Both the position numbers and the translations under genes were made by a program. The notes below the pieces were generated by a model. It searched no databases and was not told the DNA's origin. It saw only the letters and a list, made by a program, of their open reading frames with translations. 64,000 bases of DNA from Thermoanaerobaculia bacterium. Its GTDB lineage: Bacteria; Acidobacteriota; Thermoanaerobaculia; Multivoradales; JAIOJS01. Positions 27,456-39,607 of this stretch are shown in pieces; the first letter of the stretch is position 1; every line of letters begins with the position of its first letter. Where the stretch lies: positions 1 to 64,000 of the forward strand of contig JAUIDB010000018.1 of assembly GCA_030429235.1 (NCBI GenBank), written 5' to 3'.

Positions 27456-27582
27456 CTCGCTCCCCAATACGGGCTGGAGTATCCAACCATGGTCGTGGTT
27501 CCCGAGGCCGACTAGAATGCTCTTCGTTCGTAGGCGTCGAAGGCACCCCATCTCGAAGCAGCACGAGCTCCCAATACCCACT

Positions 27583-28026
27583 ATGACGAGCGCCCCTAGC
27601 CCCCCCACGACGCACGACCGCGACTGGGCCCTGTTGTTCATGAGCTGGTTGGTGGCCACGGTCTCGACCCTGGGTAGCCTGTTCTTCAGTCACGTGATGG
27701 GGTTCGCCCCCTGCGTCCTTTGTTGGTACCAGAGGATCTGTCTCTTTCCCCTGGTTCTGATCCTGGCGGCGGGATTGTTCCCCTTCGACCGCCGTGTCGT
27801 GCGATACGCTCTGCCCCTGGCGATCGTCGGCTGGTTGATCGCCGCCTACCACAACCTCATCGCAGCCGGGGTCATCCCGGAGGCCTTGCAGCCCTGCAGC
27901 CAGGGCGTCTCATGCAGCGAGGAGTACATCGCTCTCTTCGGCTTTCTGACGATCCCGATCCTCTCGCTCCTTGCCTTTTCGCTCATTACGGCTCTGCTGA
28001 CGGTCCTTTGGAGGCGCCTCCGTTGA
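27583..28026 (+). CDS. dsbB: DsbB, disulfide bond formation membrane protein
   Basis: 147-residue quinone-linked oxidase that recharges periplasmic DsbA. Four transmembrane helices are evident. The first redox pair is Cys44/Cys47 in FAPCVLCWYQR, the family signature. The second periplasmic loop has Cys105 and Cys111 in QPCSQGVSC. The ATG at 27583 was chosen over an upstream frame that adds a basic, non-conserved leader. The stop overlaps the dsbA-like start. The pair may serve folding of the many secreted and multihaem proteins here. Confidence 0.94.
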   Translation: MTSAPSPPTTHDRDWALLFMSWLVATVSTLGSLFFSHVMGFAPCVLCWYQRICLFPLVLILAAGLFPFDRRVVRYALPLAIVGWLIAAYHNLIAAGVIPEALQPCSQGVSCSEEYIALFGFLTIPILSLLAFSLITALLTVLWRRLR

Positions 28027-28676
28027 AGAAACTCGTGTTTGTCGCATCCTGTCTCGGGTTGATCGTGGTCTTCCTGCTGGCCCGTTCCGTCTACCAGATG
28101 AACCAGGCCGAAAAGGTCGGCTTCCTGGCTGATGAGAACGCCGAGGTCTTCGTCCGCGAACACTCACCAACTCGCGGTAGCGACGATGCCAAGGTGTACC
28201 TGGTGGAGTTCCTCGACCCTGCCTGCGAGACCTGCGCCGCCTTCTCGCCGATCGTCAAGGAACTGATGGACGAGCATCCGGGAAGGGTCAAGCTGGTGAT
28301 CCGCTACGCGCCCTTCCACCCCGGAGCAGATCAGATCGTCAAGATCCTGGAAGCGGCCCGACGTCAGGACAAGTACTGGGAAACCCTCGACGTGATGTTC
28401 CGCTCGCAAGCCTACTGGGCCAGCCACCACCAACCTCGCCCCGAGGCCCTGTGGGAGTACCTGCCGATGGTCGGCCTGGACACCAGCCAGCTCAAGCAGG
28501 ACATGCAGGACCCGGCGATCGCTACGCTGATCGAGCAGGACATGGCCGATGCCCGCACTCTCGGGGTCCGCAAGACGCCGAGCTTCTACGTCAACGGGAA
28601 GCCGCTGCAACAGTTCGGCGTCCAGCCGCTACGGAGCCTGCTCGAGGCCGAGATCCAGGCCCTCTACCCGGACTGA
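28023..28676 (+). CDS. DsbA-like periplasmic thiol:disulfide oxidoreductase
   Basis: 217 residues starting at TTG 28023, which overlaps the dsbB stop (TTGA). An N-terminal hydrophobic segment (about 4-20) serves as anchor or signal. The thioredoxin fold contains the active site Cys68-Glu-Thr-Cys71 in FLDPACETCAAF, a helical insertion with a YWETLDVMF motif and the cis-proline region KTPSFYVNG. It is related to DSBA-like thioredoxins of the BdbD type, which pair with short DsbB proteins. It is the oxidant partner for DsbB. Confidence 0.9.
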   Translation: MKKLVFVASCLGLIVVFLLARSVYQMNQAEKVGFLADENAEVFVREHSPTRGSDDAKVYLVEFLDPACETCAAFSPIVKELMDEHPGRVKLVIRYAPFHPGADQIVKILEAARRQDKYWETLDVMFRSQAYWASHHQPRPEALWEYLPMVGLDTSQLKQDMQDPAIATLIEQDMADARTLGVRKTPSFYVNGKPLQQFGVQPLRSLLEAEIQALYPD

Positions 28677-28784: not shown

Positions 28785-30209
28785 ATGGTCTTCAGCTCCC
28801 ACCTCTTCGTCTACTACTTCCTGCCACTGGCCCTGCTGGTGTACTACGTCCTCCCACCGCGGGCGAGGCTGGCGGGATTGGCGGCGCTCAGCTACCTCTT
28901 CTACGGTTGGACGAACCCTGCGTTCTGTCTGCTGATGCTGGCGTCGACCTCGATCGACTATGTCTGCGGAAGAGTTCTGGAGGGCCACCCGCCCGCATCT
29001 GAAGGCACGGCGAGGATCCGGAAGCTCGCGGTAACGGCCTCGATCGTGGCCAACCTGTCGCTCCTCGGCTTCTTCAAGTACTACGATCTCGCCACCAGTA
29101 CCTGGGATGCCCTGGCCACCGCCTTCGGACTGAGTAGTCTGACGCTCGAATCGACGCTGCGTGTGACTCTTCCCCTGGGGATCAGTTTCTACACCTTCCA
29201 GTCGATGAGTTACACCATCGACGTCTACCGCGGCCGGTCGAAGGCCCTGCGAGATCCGATCGCCTTCGCGGCCTACGTCTCGATGTTCCCGCAACTCGTG
29301 GCGGGTCCGATCCTTCGCTACTCGGAGATCGCTGACCAGTTGAGCGATCCCGGCCCCAGCCGGGCCAAGGCGACTCGCGGCGTCACCTTCTTCAGCCTCG
29401 GCCTGGCCAAGAAGGTCCTTCTCGCCAATCCGTGTGGCGAGATCGCGGATGCGACCTTCGGCGCCGCCTCGGTCGGTCTGGTCGACGCCTGGTACGGCGC
29501 CAGCGCCTACGCCTTCCAGATCTACTTCGATTTCTCGGGGTACTCGGACATGGCCATCGGCCTCGGCCTCCTCCTGGGATTCGTCTTCCCCAAGAACTTC
29601 GACTCGCCCTACCTAGCGACCTCGGCCACGGACTTCTGGCGGCGCTGGCACATCTCCCTGTCGACCTGGTTGCGGGACTATCTCTACGTGCCGCTCGGAG
29701 GGAACCGCCGCGGCGCGCTACGAACGTACCTCAACCTCGCCCTGGTCATGCTGCTCGGCGGGCTCTGGCACGGAGCCGCCTGGACCTTCCTCGCCTGGGG
29801 AGCGATCCACGGTTTGTGGTTGGCGGCCGAGCGCGCCCGGGGCAAGCGCGGGCTCTTCGACTTCCTCCCGACCTGGGGTCAGAACGTGGCGACCTTCGTC
29901 GTACTGCTCTTCACCTGGGTGCTCTTCCGAGCCGACGACTTCGGTCACGCCACCCGCTACTTCGCTTCGATGGTGGGCTTGACCGAGCCCAGCGTGGCCT
30001 CGGACCTACTGGCCGGTTGGATCTATCGCCCCTACTTCCTGCTCGTCGTGCTCACCGCCACGGTCGTGACCTGGTCGGCGCCCCAGACCTGGGACTGGTC
30101 TCGATCCCTCGGCCCCTCGAAGGTCGCTGCTACCCTGCTCTTGCTGGTCACTGCCCTCGGAGTGATGGCCGGGCAGGACTTCAACCCGTTCATCTACTTC
30201 ATCTTCTAG
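28785..30209 (+). CDS. MBOAT-family O-acyltransferase (AlgI-like)
   Basis: 474-residue polytopic acyltransferase, about 11 transmembrane segments. It matches AlgI/PatA-type proteins: MVFSSHLFVYYFLPLAL, GISFYTFQSMSYTIDVYRG, QLVAGPILRYSEI, FDFSGYSDMAIGLG, FWRRWHISLSTWLRDYLY and the catalytic His329 in LGGLWHGAAWTF, with His342 in AIHGLW. Such proteins move acyl groups, usually acetyl, from a cytoplasmic donor across the membrane for transfer to an exopolysaccharide or peptidoglycan. The next gene, seven bases away, encodes an AlgX-like domain, the usual periplasmic partner. Confidence 0.93.
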   Translation: MVFSSHLFVYYFLPLALLVYYVLPPRARLAGLAALSYLFYGWTNPAFCLLMLASTSIDYVCGRVLEGHPPASEGTARIRKLAVTASIVANLSLLGFFKYYDLATSTWDALATAFGLSSLTLESTLRVTLPLGISFYTFQSMSYTIDVYRGRSKALRDPIAFAAYVSMFPQLVAGPILRYSEIADQLSDPGPSRAKATRGVTFFSLGLAKKVLLANPCGEIADATFGAASVGLVDAWYGASAYAFQIYFDFSGYSDMAIGLGLLLGFVFPKNFDSPYLATSATDFWRRWHISLSTWLRDYLYVPLGGNRRGALRTYLNLALVMLLGGLWHGAAWTFLAWGAIHGLWLAAERARGKRGLFDFLPTWGQNVATFVVLLFTWVLFRADDFGHATRYFASMVGLTEPSVASDLLAGWIYRPYFLLVVLTATVVTWSAPQTWDWSRSLGPSKVAATLLLLVTALGVMAGQDFNPFIYFIF

Positions 30210-30216
30210 GAAGATC

Positions 30217-33200
30217 ATGTCCCGTACCCCGCCCCCCGATCCCCTCCAACGAGACCAACAGGCGCTGGCCGATCTGGTCCAACCGGTGGCGAGCGATCGC
30301 TGGCAGAGTATCTTGCTCGGGCTCGCCGCGATCCTCCTGTCCACGGTCACACTCACGGAATGCCTCCTCGATCCTCCGCGTCTCCCGCTGGCGCTTGGCG
30401 AACTCGAGTCGAGTTATCAGAAGGGTGGTCTCCTGGCCGCGAATCGGGAGCTTCTCGCTTCGTTGGACGAGTTCGAGAGCGGCCTCGAGGAACGATCCCT
30501 CGTCGCCCACACCGTCGCCCCCTGGATCCAGTGGATCCAGACCCTCCGGCTCGGAGTCGGCGATCACCAGGTCCGACTCGGTCGGGACGACTGGCTCTTC
30601 TTCCGGCCCGCCGTCGAGTTCGCGACCGGCCCTGGGTTCCTGGAACCCGACGTGATCGCCCGGCGACGGGCGGCGGGCGACAGCTGGCAAGACCCGATCG
30701 CCGCCGATCCTCGTCCGGCGATCCTCGACTTCCACCGTGAGTTGACGGCACGAGGTATCGAGCTCGTGCTGCTTCCGGTACCGACCAAGGCCCAGGTGGA
30801 CCCACAGCGGCTCTCGCGACATATCGCCGCCGAGCAGGCACCGCTGGCCAACCCCTCGATGCCCCGACTCCTGACCGAACTCGCAGCTGCCGGCGTTCGG
30901 GTCGTCGATCCGACCTCGGTCCTGGTCGCCGCTCGCGCCGATGGCGAACCCCAGTTCCTCGCCCGCGATACCCACTGGACACCGGCCGCCGTGGAGCGCA
31001 CCGCCGAACTGCTCTCCCGGGAGCTGACCGACTTGGAGCTGGCTCGGCCGAGGAGCACCGGCTGGACGCGCTCGCCCGCCCTCGCCTCCCACGCCGGCGA
31101 TCTGGTCGAGATGCTGGGTCTGCCCGAAGGGCGGTCTCCCTGGAGGCCCGACCAGGTCGTTCTCCACTCCGTACGGGACCCTAGCGGTCGCCCCTGGCAG
31201 CCCGACGCCGAAGCTGAGATCCTCCTCCTGGGCGACTCGTTTAGCAACGTCTACTCGACCCCCGATCTGGGCTGGGGCGTCGGGGCTGGTCTGGCCGAGC
31301 AGCTTTCCTGGCAGTGGCAGCGGCCGGTCGACCGCATCGCCGTCAACGCCGGGGGTGCCAGCGGGGCTCGCCAGAGGCTGGCGCGCGAACTCGCACAGGG
31401 ACGCGATCGTCTGGCCACCAAGCGGGTCGTGATCTGGGAGGTATCGAACCGTGAACTCACCTCCGGCGACTGGGAGGTCGTCCCGCTGCCGCACGCCCCG
31501 CCGCGGTCGGGGACCGGCTCGGACGAGACGCTTCCTCGACGACCGCTGGGGGATGGTCTCGTGGTCTGGGAGTCGAACCGCACCGGAAACTGGCGAATCT
31601 TTGTTCGCCCCCTGGAGGGCGGCGCGCCCCGGCAGCTGAGCCCCGACGAACCGGGCCGACAACACTGTTGTCCCCACTTTTCTCCCGACGGTACCCGGGT
31701 CGCCTACCTCAGCCGTCTCGACGGAGCGAGCGAGTATCCGAAGGTAGAGCGCCCCGGGGAGCTCCGGATCCTCTCGCTTCGGGACGGCACCGAACGCACC
31801 GTCGCGCCGGCTCGGACCTACGGTTGGGGCAATCGAGCCGTGGTTTGGCGAGACGACTCGACGCTGATCTTCGTCGACGGCGAAGGCCGGACCGCCGAAC
31901 TCGACCTCGCGACGCAAGAAGAGCGTCTGCTGGTGGCTTCGCCCCGTGCGGCACTCGGCTGGCTACTGGATCCCAGTCTCGCTTTCGCTACCAACGCGGC
32001 CCCCAGCTTCTCTCCCTACCAACCCGAAGGCCTGGCCGTGGCCGAACGCTCCGGGCTCGGGGGCTGCGAGCCCTACTTCTCTTCCGACGGGCGCTGGGGA
32101 TACTGGAACGCCGGTCCCGGGGGGCCGATTCAACGCATCGACCCACGGACCCGTTCGATCAGCCCCTTGATCCTGCGGGACGACCCCCGATTGCCAATCG
32201 GCTGGCGCTACCTCTACTTCGTGATGACCTCTCGCGACGATCGCGCCATGGCTTGGGGTGCCTCGAATGGCGACCACGACCACTTCGCGGCGGACTACGA
32301 GATCTTCGTGGCCCCGATCGATCCAGAGACCCTCGAGCTGACCGGAGCCCCGTCGAGGATCACGCACCACCCGGCGACCGATCGCTACCCCGACGTCTTC
32401 CGGCAGCCGTTGGAGTTGGGCTATCACGCCCTCGAAGCCCCGCATACCCTCCGTCTCGGGCTCGACACCGGCGTGGCGCAGTCGTGGCGGCTCGACGGAC
32501 GCGAGGTCGCCACGGGACCGACGTTCGAGCACCTCTTCGAGCGCCCGGGCTCCCACCATCTCGTCGCCGTGACCCCGGAAGGGCACTCGGTCGAAGGTCT
32601 GGTCATCGTCAGCCCTCGGCAGGCGCCGACCATCGAAGAGGCGCGACTTCGCGATCGGGGCACCGCGCTGCGAGTCCGCTTCGATGAACCCATGCAGACG
32701 GTACCCACGGCCGGGGTCGATACCGACCCTCCCGGCACCGTCGTCGACTGGCGGCTGGAGGATGGCGGCCGCACGCTCCACGCCGCGCTGTCCCGCGAGG
32801 TGCGGGAGGATCTGCGGCTTCGACTACGGGGATTCACCGACCAGGCACAGGTTCCCAACCCGCTCGCCGCAGACTGGATCGAACTCCTCCCCGCCTCCTG
32901 GCCCGTCACCGAGCGTGATCTGCTCTTCGCCTGGGAGAACGAACGCGCTCCCAACCTCGTGTTCGATTCCGCTCTCGGTGCCGATCGGTCCTCCACCCTG
33001 ATCACGTCGGGGCGCGCCTATCCGAACCGCGACCACGCACTGGTCCTCGACGGGGGGTGGGCCCAGGCCAGCGACGAGGACTCCGCCCAGATCGCCGGCC
33101 GGCTCGACGCTACGCTCGAGGTGGCTCTCGAGGTGCTGCTGACCCCGTCTTCGACCCGCGCTTCGAATTCCGACCGTCCCCGCCGGCTCCTGGCCCTGGC

Positions 33201-33912
33201 TCCGCGGCGGGGGCGAGCGCTGCTGGAGGTGAGTCAACGGAGTGATCGCCTGGAAGCGACCTTCCTGACCTCCGAGCAGCGCGATCCCACCCCCATCGTA
33301 CTGGGTCCCGTACGGGCCGGAACGACCCACCACCTGGTGCTGTCGTTTACCGGTGCCACCTTGACGGTGACCCTCGACGGAGCACGCCAGCGACTGGAGC
33401 GACAACCCACCGGGACTCTCGGCCCATGGCGCGCCAAGAATCCCCGTCTGCTCCTCGGGTCAGCCGAGGAGGAATCGAGCTGGCGTGGCACCATCGAAGG
33501 TCTCGCACTGTGGGGACGAGCTCTGGACGAAGAAGGCCACCAGGAGGCTTGGGAGCGTGCCCGGAGACGCCTCTCCAGCCGCCCGCAGATCAAGTCCCGG
33601 CAGGTCGCAGCTCGGCTCCTGCGGCGATCGGCCATCCCCTCGCTCGAGGAGATCTCCCCGTATCGGTCCGGTCTGGTGGCGTTCGAGTGGCAGCCGGAAT
33701 CGCCGGTGGGAGCCGCCCCCATCACGGTCGTCCACTGGGCCCTCCTCGATGGGGACCGACAGCCAGTCACCGAACTCGCCGTCGGGGACCTCGCGACTCT
33801 CGAGCTCGAGCCCTTCGGTGCCCAGGTCCAACTGGAACCCTTCTACCTCTCGGATCGGTCAGCGAACGCCACCCCCGGTTCCTGGTTTGCAGTGGGACTG
33901 CGAACCCCCTAG
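30217..33912 (+). CDS. AlgX-like SGNH acyltransferase fused to propeller, Ig-like and LamG-like domains
   Basis: 1231-residue membrane-anchored protein. A transmembrane helix (about 30-46) precedes an AlgX/AlgJ-type SGNH domain (about 110-415) with DTHW 251-254 and the nucleophile region LLLGDSFSNVY (GDSF 339-342), in the permuted order typical of that family. Residues about 445-760 look like a TolB-type propeller (VVWESNRTGNWRIFVRP, PHFSPDGTRVAYLSR). A Big-type Ig-like domain (about 795-890) follows, then a LamG/concanavalin-like domain (about 905-1100) and a C-terminal beta region. AlgX homologues are normally about 350-480 residues, so the fusion is unusual. It probably completes O-acetylation begun by the MBOAT protein and may bind the polysaccharide. 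Confidence 0.8.
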   Translation: MSRTPPPDPLQRDQQALADLVQPVASDRWQSILLGLAAILLSTVTLTECLLDPPRLPLALGELESSYQKGGLLAANRELLASLDEFESGLEERSLVAHTVAPWIQWIQTLRLGVGDHQVRLGRDDWLFFRPAVEFATGPGFLEPDVIARRRAAGDSWQDPIAADPRPAILDFHRELTARGIELVLLPVPTKAQVDPQRLSRHIAAEQAPLANPSMPRLLTELAAAGVRVVDPTSVLVAARADGEPQFLARDTHWTPAAVERTAELLSRELTDLELARPRSTGWTRSPALASHAGDLVEMLGLPEGRSPWRPDQVVLHSVRDPSGRPWQPDAEAEILLLGDSFSNVYSTPDLGWGVGAGLAEQLSWQWQRPVDRIAVNAGGASGARQRLARELAQGRDRLATKRVVIWEVSNRELTSGDWEVVPLPHAPPRSGTGSDETLPRRPLGDGLVVWESNRTGNWRIFVRPLEGGAPRQLSPDEPGRQHCCPHFSPDGTRVAYLSRLDGASEYPKVERPGELRILSLRDGTERTVAPARTYGWGNRAVVWRDDSTLIFVDGEGRTAELDLATQEERLLVASPRAALGWLLDPSLAFATNAAPSFSPYQPEGLAVAERSGLGGCEPYFSSDGRWGYWNAGPGGPIQRIDPRTRSISPLILRDDPRLPIGWRYLYFVMTSRDDRAMAWGASNGDHDHFAADYEIFVAPIDPETLELTGAPSRITHHPATDRYPDVFRQPLELGYHALEAPHTLRLGLDTGVAQSWRLDGREVATGPTFEHLFERPGSHHLVAVTPEGHSVEGLVIVSPRQAPTIEEARLRDRGTALRVRFDEPMQTVPTAGVDTDPPGTVVDWRLEDGGRTLHAALSREVREDLRLRLRGFTDQAQVPNPLAADWIELLPASWPVTERDLLFAWENERAPNLVFDSALGADRSSTLITSGRAYPNRDHALVLDGGWAQASDEDSAQIAGRLDATLEVALEVLLTPSSTRASNSDRPRRLLALAPRRGRALLEVSQRSDRLEATFLTSEQRDPTPIVLGPVRAGTTHHLVLSFTGATLTVTLDGARQRLERQPTGTLGPWRAKNPRLLLGSAEEESSWRGTIEGLALWGRALDEEGHQEAWERARRRLSSRPQIKSRQVAARLLRRSAIPSLEEISPYRSGLVAFEWQPESPVGAAPITVVHWALLDGDRQPVTELAVGDLATLELEPFGAQVQLEPFYLSDRSANATPGSWFAVGLRTP

Positions 33913-38473: not shown

Positions 38474-39607
38474 TCAGCGTGACGCGGCCCTCGCCGATCG
38501 AATCGAAGCCATGAGATCGACTTCCAGAGGGTCGGGAACCTCGGGTCGATGCCTGATCCGCTCGAGCCAGCTTCCGGTCCTTCGGTCCCGGGCAAAAAGG
38601 GAACGCTCGAAGGAGAGGTAGCCATACAGATCGTTGTACAGCGTCTGCAGGACGACGATGTCGGGCTCCATGTACCGCGCTCGATCCTCGAAGAGTTCCA
38701 TCTGGTCACTGATCGTGTATCCCACCACGCCAGCGTTGACCACCTCGGCCTTCGACAGCATCGACTGCAGTAGAGCAGGGTAGGTATGAGGCTCCGGTAG
38801 ATTGATGCCAAAGGTAAACGAATCGCCGAGCAGCAAGACTCTCGGTCGGACCTTCGGGAATACGAGGTCCTTTGCCATTCTCAGACCCTGGTGGTTGGTC
38901 GTCAGAAGGAAGGGCAAGGAGTCGTCGTACCAGAGCCTCTTCTGCCCGGGGGGAAGGTCTCCGAGGCGACGAGGCCGTCGTTCGAAACGGACGCGGCTGC
39001 GGTGTTCGGCCAGATCGGGCTGGCGCAGGATCTCGGCCAGGTTCTCGGCCAGAAGTTGATTCCCCAACCGACTGAGATGGGTGTTCTCAGGTAGGAGGTA
39101 GCTCTGATGCCTGGGTGCCGACCGCAACCACGATGTCGCATCGACAAACGGTGCACCCTGGCTGGCCGCTAGGCGCCCGTAGAAGGTCCGGTCCGAGGCG
39201 TGGACCCGATCCGCCACCTCTCCTGTCCGCGCGGACGGTACATAGAGCACGACCAACCGCGCGTCCGCGCCCTCGACGAGACGCGCGAGCCGCAGGAAGT
39301 CCCCTTCGTACCGCTCCTGAAACCGCTGTAGCAACTCCCGGCCAGTCGGACCATAGAGCGCCTCGTAGATCGACTCCGCCGGAGGGAGATCGAGTTCTTC
39401 CACCACGCCGCGGGCCACCTCTCTGGTCCTGGCCTGGCTCCAATCGGAGAGCACCGCGGAGAGTGCGAACCACCCCTCACCCCGCTGTCGGAAGGTGTAG
39501 TACTGGGCCGCGACCTCCAAGATGCCCAGGACGAAGAGCAGAGGAAGGAGCGAAAAGAGAAGCTTCCGGCCGAGGCTCGTCTTCGCTCGGGCAAACCGAT
39601 CCGTCAT
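38474..39607 (-). CDS. AlgX/AlgJ-like SGNH hydrolase with permuted motif order
   Basis: 377 residues. One transmembrane helix (about 16-34) anchors a periplasmic domain. A histidine motif NTHLSRLGNQLLAE (175-188) comes before the nucleophile motif LLLGDSFTFG (GDSF 261-264), and NAGVVGYTISDQM follows at 291-303. The permuted order (His motif before Ser motif) is that of AlgX/AlgJ-type polysaccharide O-acetylation proteins, not that of ordinary GDSL hydrolases. It is convergent with the PAT transporter and about 9 kb from the MBOAT gene, so it may be a second acyl-transfer partner. The substrate is unknown. Confidence 0.75.
   Translation of the reverse strand: MTDRFARAKTSLGRKLLFSLLPLLFVLGILEVAAQYYTFRQRGEGWFALSAVLSDWSQARTREVARGVVEELDLPPAESIYEALYGPTGRELLQRFQERYEGDFLRLARLVEGADARLVVLYVPSARTGEVADRVHASDRTFYGRLAASQGAPFVDATSWLRSAPRHQSYLLPENTHLSRLGNQLLAENLAEILRQPDLAEHRSRVRFERRPRRLGDLPPGQKRLWYDDSLPFLLTTNHQGLRMAKDLVFPKVRPRVLLLGDSFTFGINLPEPHTYPALLQSMLSKAEVVNAGVVGYTISDQMELFEDRARYMEPDIVVLQTLYNDLYGYLSFERSLFARDRRTGSWLERIRHRPEVPDPLEVDLMASIRSARAASR

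Follow-up and report, generated by a model that had tools for sequence, protein, structure and literature searches.

The locus considered here comprises two genes on the forward strand of a 64,000-nucleotide stretch of Acidobacteriota DNA (the window), which lies on an 85 kb contig of a 4.85 Mb draft genome of 92 contigs, rated 100% complete. All features below are on the forward strand unless stated otherwise. The first gene (28785..30209, ATG start, 474 residues) encodes an MBOAT acyltransferase, and the second (30217..33912, also with an ATG start) is a single open reading frame of 1231 residues, separated from the first by 7 bases (30210..30216). An earlier reading made from the sequence alone (the sequence-only reading) had described this arrangement, including the seven-base spacing, and the coordinates of the reading frames agree with it.

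The protein encoded by the first gene matches Pfam PF03062 (E 7e-33) and, at the profile level, the DltB structures 8jem and 6bug. Two histidines, H289 and H329, are invariant in an alignment with 24 homologues (alignment A3), and the second of these, the conserved catalytic histidine (codon at 29769..29771), is the one that the sequence-only reading had correctly named for its AlgI-type MBOAT. The protein ends in NPFIYFIF, and thus carries at its extreme C-terminus (residues 469-474, 30189..30206) an FXYXXF hexapeptide, FIYFIF, of which F469, Y471 and F474 are kept in 24 of 24 homologues. FXYXXF is a proven acyl-tyrosine shuttle in PatA and DltX; the MBOAT protein PatA auto-acetylates the tyrosine of its C-terminal FXYXXF and the acetyl group is then donated to the SGNH partner, and the same tyrosine relay has been proposed for the systems that act on alginate and cellulose (PMC12148441). 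Read by analogy with these systems, the C-terminal motif says more about the mechanism than any other single observation at the locus.

The N-terminal part of the second protein opens with a hydrophobic helix (residues 27-51, 30295..30369, SILLGLAAILLSTVTLTECLL), seen as a helix in the structural model and predicted to be an inner-membrane anchor, followed by a permuted SGNH domain of the AlgJ/AlgX type (residues 117-420, 30565..31476). Pfam ALGX matches residues 119-410 (E 5e-33), and the order of the motifs is the permuted one, with D251-T-H253-W254 ahead of G339-D340-S341-F342. The Asp/His pair of the DxH motif (D251-T252-H253, 30967..30975) aligns with the DxHW of AlgJ and AlgX, and the catalytic serine of GDSF (S341, 31237..31239) is equivalent to that of the AlgJ GTSYS motif. 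Across 23 homologues, P189, D251, H253, W254 and S341 are invariant and K191 almost so, so that both the triad and the accompanying signature are present. These residues are the counterparts of P132, K134, D190, H192, W193 and S288 of AlgJ, which are required for acetylation in vivo (PMC4148444).

The fold agrees with the motifs. In a model of the N-terminal 450 residues, predicted separately with a mean pLDDT of 88, the SGNH domain (residues 117-420) fits AlgJ best (4o8v; Z 25.1, 2.7 Å over 255 residues), followed by AlgX (4knc, Z 22.4), a DHHW protein (16.4) and PatB1 (5v8d, 15.7), and the next unrelated chain reaches a Z of only 4.6, which identifies the fold as a circularly permuted SGNH fold. 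The DTHW and GDSF motifs of the sequence-only reading are therefore real, and the lack of a catalytic SGNH site, named beforehand as grounds for abandoning it, is not what the modelled fold and invariant triad display. Its AlgX-like label holds insofar as the domain belongs to the AlgX/AlgJ type, but the fold is nearer to AlgJ than to AlgX. No Pfam match to an AlgX-type carbohydrate-binding module was found behind the SGNH domain, and the propeller begins at residue 445. E413 aligns, in a stretch that falls below significance, with Y348 of Pseudomonas putida AlgJ, a tyrosine that replaces the oxyanion-hole asparagine; a glutamate at this position could signal an altered chemistry. Overall, the proposal of an AlgI/AlgJ-type O-acylation pair is supported, with all the catalytic elements in place, including the shuttle tyrosine that the sequence-only reading had left unmentioned.

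The region beyond the SGNH domain

The remaining 800 residues or so form a succession of beta-rich domains. Residues 436-1231 were modelled apart from the N-terminal half (pLDDT 88.9, pTM 0.84), and the domains anticipated from the sequence, namely a TolB-like propeller, an Ig-like domain and a concanavalin-like region, were all recovered. The propeller (residues 445-731, 31549..32409; residues 10-296 of the model) aligns with TolB (2w8b) at a Z of 22.4 and 3.2 Å over 246 residues. The likeness is one of fold and not of membership, as the propeller scores only 14-19 bits, against TolB cut-offs of 343 and 405. Two Ig-like beta-sandwich stretches follow (residues 743-875, 32443..32841), the first PKD-like and the second Big_5-like according to the Pfam matches of 22 homologues, of which 17 match PKD and 2 give a weak match to Big_5. 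Next comes a LamG/ConA-like jelly roll (residues 892-1125, 32890..33591), matched by Laminin_G_3 in 22 of 22 homologues and by jelly-roll structures at a Z of about 19; the matches to clostridial neurotoxin binding domains among these were read as a common fold only. The protein ends in a conserved tail domain of about 100 residues (1128-1229, 33598..33903), in which the model shows strands together with short helices.

The propeller contains a set of strongly conserved residues, H483, C484, C485, C617, H687, H689, D693 and Y694, in an alignment of 22 homologues. They are arranged mostly in three motifs: HCC (H483-C484-C485, 31663..31671), with both cysteines kept in 21 of 21 homologues and the histidine in 20 of 21; the cysteine of a G-C-(Q/E)-PYF blade motif (C617, 32065..32067; 22 of 22); and HDH (H687-D-H689, 32275..32283), with H687 in 22 of 22 and H689 in 20 of 22. 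Judged from conservation, the HCC, C617 and HDH motifs possibly mark a metal site, a disulfide or an active site. Genes for DsbB-like and DsbA/thioredoxin-like proteins (27517-28676) lie immediately upstream of the MBOAT gene, and the fused propeller has three conserved cysteines.

A conserved three-gene cassette and its fused form

The origin of the additional domains becomes apparent from related genomes. At 23 further loci, most of them in genomes of the same Acidobacteriota order, the parts are encoded by a compact set of three genes on one strand in a fixed order, namely a propeller-LamG protein, an MBOAT and an AlgJ-like SGNH protein (21 loci, with L069 and L080 in addition). Of the 21 loci in which the gap between the propeller and MBOAT genes was measured, 19 have one of -1 to 85 bases; the exceptions are L048, with its LamG part in a second reading frame, and L051, for which a second MBOAT-SGNH pair was matched instead of the first. 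The latter locus (L051:5300-12866) has a single propeller gene followed by two MBOAT-SGNH pairs in tandem. A contig scan with a single protein query gave no matches and the scan based on an alignment did. The propeller protein occurs in 29 of the 72 genomes of the order and in 5 of 297 sampled across the phylum, the window's own included. The publicly named genomes searched in the order are mostly labelled Acidobacteriota, and several Thermoanaerobaculia. Under a strict rule, 21 of the 29 separate propeller proteins carry a lipobox signal, and several others have hydrophobic N-termini resembling membrane anchors. Solitary propeller genes, with neither MBOAT nor SGNH gene in the 17-18 kb examined, were seen on two contigs (G048:C23 and G018:C66).

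The complete propeller proteins of the cassette all retain the tail domain, and a weaker relative of it is appended to four separate AlgJ-like SGNH proteins (best E between the two kinds about 1e-4). That both partners carry the module is consistent with their acting together. Four loci (L036, L046, L049 and L069) have an extra, shorter AlgJ-like gene just downstream, and there the first SGNH protein ends in the tail domain.

In the window, the propeller part lies not upstream of the MBOAT gene but in frame behind the SGNH domain, and has lost its own signal. Codon-position GC follows one pattern through the whole 1231-residue frame (GC3 0.72-0.88), with no step at the junction. Homologues of both halves of the protein are roughly 30-57% identical. 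A search for the same fusion in other genomes, as the sequence-only reading had suggested, found it in two further metagenome-assembled genomes, named Vicinamibacteria, in which the SGNH domain is joined to a propeller and tail without the LamG domain. Both also carry the HCC, GC and HDH motifs and the conserved tail. In one of them (L076) an MBOAT gene that likewise ends in FIYFIF lies directly upstream of the fusion; the locus in the other (L075) is cut by the end of its contig. As LamG is absent from both, this domain cannot be indispensable. Since 23 loci keep the pieces as three genes in a fixed order, the arrangement in the window is a real fusion with an altered gene order and not a frame error.

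The three fused propellers form one clade (support 98/96), the SGNH tree splits the fused members with their grouping not rejected (AU p 0.16), and the MBOAT tree, which could include two fused loci, places the window apart from L076. Taken together, these trees would fit either one fusion with later gene exchange or two fusions. With the propellers in one clade and the SGNH split at this p value, independent origins were not adopted as the established reading. The literature searched contained no paper on an SGNH-propeller fusion of this kind, and no experimental work on any member of the cassette or its fused form.

With a hydrophobic helix at its N-terminus and no lipobox, the fused protein is predicted to lie at the inner membrane on its periplasmic side, where the MBOAT would pass on the acyl group. 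The covalent link to an enzyme anchored in the inner membrane speaks, in turn, for a partner that works in the periplasm, close to that membrane, and not at the cell surface, and the term surface in the sequence-only proposal of a self-contained surface acylation system is thus not supported. The other term, self-contained, is apt only in the sense of a unit without conserved polysaccharide-synthesis neighbours, and synthesis of the target polymer must be encoded at some other place. Around the cassette, in the window and in the loci compared, neither polysaccharide-synthesis genes nor an adjoining export gene are conserved. The scanned neighbours in the window are the upstream DsbB-like and DsbA-like genes, a symporter, a downstream glycosyltransferase-like membrane protein of the PMT_2 type and an MFS transporter, with no alginate synthesis or export genes among them; the Dsb-like and PMT_2-type genes are not common to the loci of the relatives compared.

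Two other genes in this genome deserve mention. About 4.6 kb downstream, on the opposite strand (38474-39607), lies a second, divergent permuted-SGNH protein of 377 residues, single-copy in the genome, with weak ALGX and GDSL matches and NTHLS replacing DTHW. On contig C72 (L053:7340-11395), a second MBOAT ends in KPFLYFQF, the same shuttle motif, and is followed within 10 bases by a protein of 863 residues with a sulfatase/alkaline-phosphatase fold. For an MBOAT of the shuttle type, such a protein in place of an SGNH one is an unusual partner.

Proposed mechanism and competing roles for the partner

Building on the gene structure, motifs, domain folds, conserved three-gene unit and fusion established by computation, we consider it probable that the locus encodes an MBOAT-SGNH O-acyltransferase for a cell-envelope polymer, with the SGNH subunit fused to a partner that holds the polymer. 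The transferred group is probably acetyl; we infer this group, the nature of its acceptor polymer and the part that the propeller/LamG region plays in binding. The MBOAT would take an acyl group, probably acetyl, from cytoplasmic acyl-CoA, and H329 would help to load it onto Tyr471 of FIYFIF, as in PatAB and DltBXD. By the same analogy, the peptide would swing to the SGNH domain anchored alongside, where Ser341, with H253 and D251, would accept the acyl group. These steps draw on the identity of motifs and folds with proven systems. Ser341 may then pass the acyl group to a sugar hydroxyl of a periplasmic polymer, recognised or held beside the active site by the propeller/Ig/LamG/tail region. 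Elsewhere this partner is a separate protein of the same operon, usually a lipoprotein, and in three genomes it is covalently joined to the SGNH domain.

The assignment of the holding role follows from what is known of alginate acetylation. AlgX, the enzyme that acetylates alginate, contains a binding module and does bind the polymer, whereas no binding of short mannuronic acid polymers is seen with AlgJ (PMC4148444, PMC9734138). Since the SGNH domain of the window resembles AlgJ and is not directly followed by a binding module, the propeller/LamG/tail part is a natural candidate for the polymer holder, and its fusion to the SGNH domain, found in three genomes, suggests that the two work together. 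The sequence-only reading had supposed that the extra residues bind the polymer or cell wall: they do form a separate unit with a fold compatible with polymer binding, but propellers and LamG domains also bind proteins, and the binding is therefore a guess from fold.

It is conceivable, though on balance unlikely, that the propeller/LamG part is not a glycan binder but a docking scaffold that brings the MBOAT-SGNH pair to an export or assembly complex, as AlgK does for AlgX. The propeller fits TolB best, and propellers of this type are known to bind proteins, the tail shared by the propeller protein and some SGNH partners resembles a common contact module, and AlgX acts in complex with the lipoprotein AlgK (PMC9734138). 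However, no export gene is conserved next to the cassette. Moreover, LamG and PKD domains are frequent in glycan-binding and surface proteins, which speaks against a mere scaffold.

A considerably less probable reading takes the propeller itself to be an enzyme or metal site acting on the same polymer, for example in its removal or remodelling, which would make the fusion bifunctional. It draws on the eight conserved propeller residues and on the top Foldseek ranks, which are propeller-plus-lectin glycosidases (the arabinanase AbnA and a trans-sialidase) with poor superposition. A glycosidase or sialidase identity was not adopted, because these matches have a full-length rmsd near 20 Å and agree only in the propeller-plus-lectin layout. 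The accurate alignment favours TolB, which is not an enzyme, no known catalytic motif was recognised in the propeller, and the cysteines may merely form disulfides. That the His-Cys-Cys, Cys and His-x-His set constitutes a second active or metal-binding centre, and not a part of a passive binder, is a long shot; if true, these Acidobacteriota would possess a previously undescribed machine for modifying the envelope, one that couples acyl transfer to a further reaction on the polymer being acylated.

Finally, that an assembly or frame artefact joined two separate genes, a refuting outcome set out in the sequence-only reading, can be rejected with near certainty: the genome is a 92-contig draft and most relatives do encode the SGNH and propeller parts as independent genes, but the propeller gene of the relatives lies upstream of the MBOAT, so that no single base error gives the order in the window, the codon-position pattern is continuous over a clean junction, and the fusion recurs in two further genomes, one with the MBOAT directly upstream, its three propellers forming one clade.

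Comparison with known systems

MBOAT-SGNH pairs modify many bacterial envelope polymers, and the retention of an SGNH enzyme on its polymer is best described for alginate. With the AlgI-AlgJ-AlgX system of alginate O-acetylation in Pseudomonas, the locus shares an MBOAT and a membrane-anchored permuted SGNH protein in which the signature residues of AlgJ are kept. In contrast to that system, the window has no alginate genes and no AlgX-type module, no AlgF-like or AlgK-like gene was recognised in the cassette, and a propeller/Ig/LamG/tail partner is present in fused form. With PatA-PatB, which O-acetylates peptidoglycan, and with PatB1, the likeness lies in the C-terminal FXYXXF of the MBOAT and in the SGNH fold (Z 15.7 to PatB1); PatB combines SGNH domain and membrane part, the latter at its N-terminus, and nothing in that system corresponds to the propeller/LamG partner. 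The DltB-DltX-DltD system of teichoic acid D-alanylation shares the MBOAT core and the logic of the shuttle motif, but in the window this motif resides on the MBOAT itself and no carrier-protein gene adjoins. The MBOAT was also considered as a DltB equivalog and rejected, with 150 bits against the NCBIfam TIGR04091 cut-off of 375. TolB shares the propeller fold; the fused protein lacks the N-terminal domain of TolB and recognised tol-pal neighbours, and adds Ig, LamG and tail domains.

Overall, the sequence-only reading is right in outline, and what it missed is the source of the extra part, a partner that belongs to a conserved unit of three genes and is fused here. Set beside the known MBOAT-SGNH systems, the fixed three-gene unit and its natural fusion suggest that this little-studied phylum has a dedicated third subunit, and the fused protein, with a transferase and a presumed polymer holder in one chain, could be studied together with its donor peptide.
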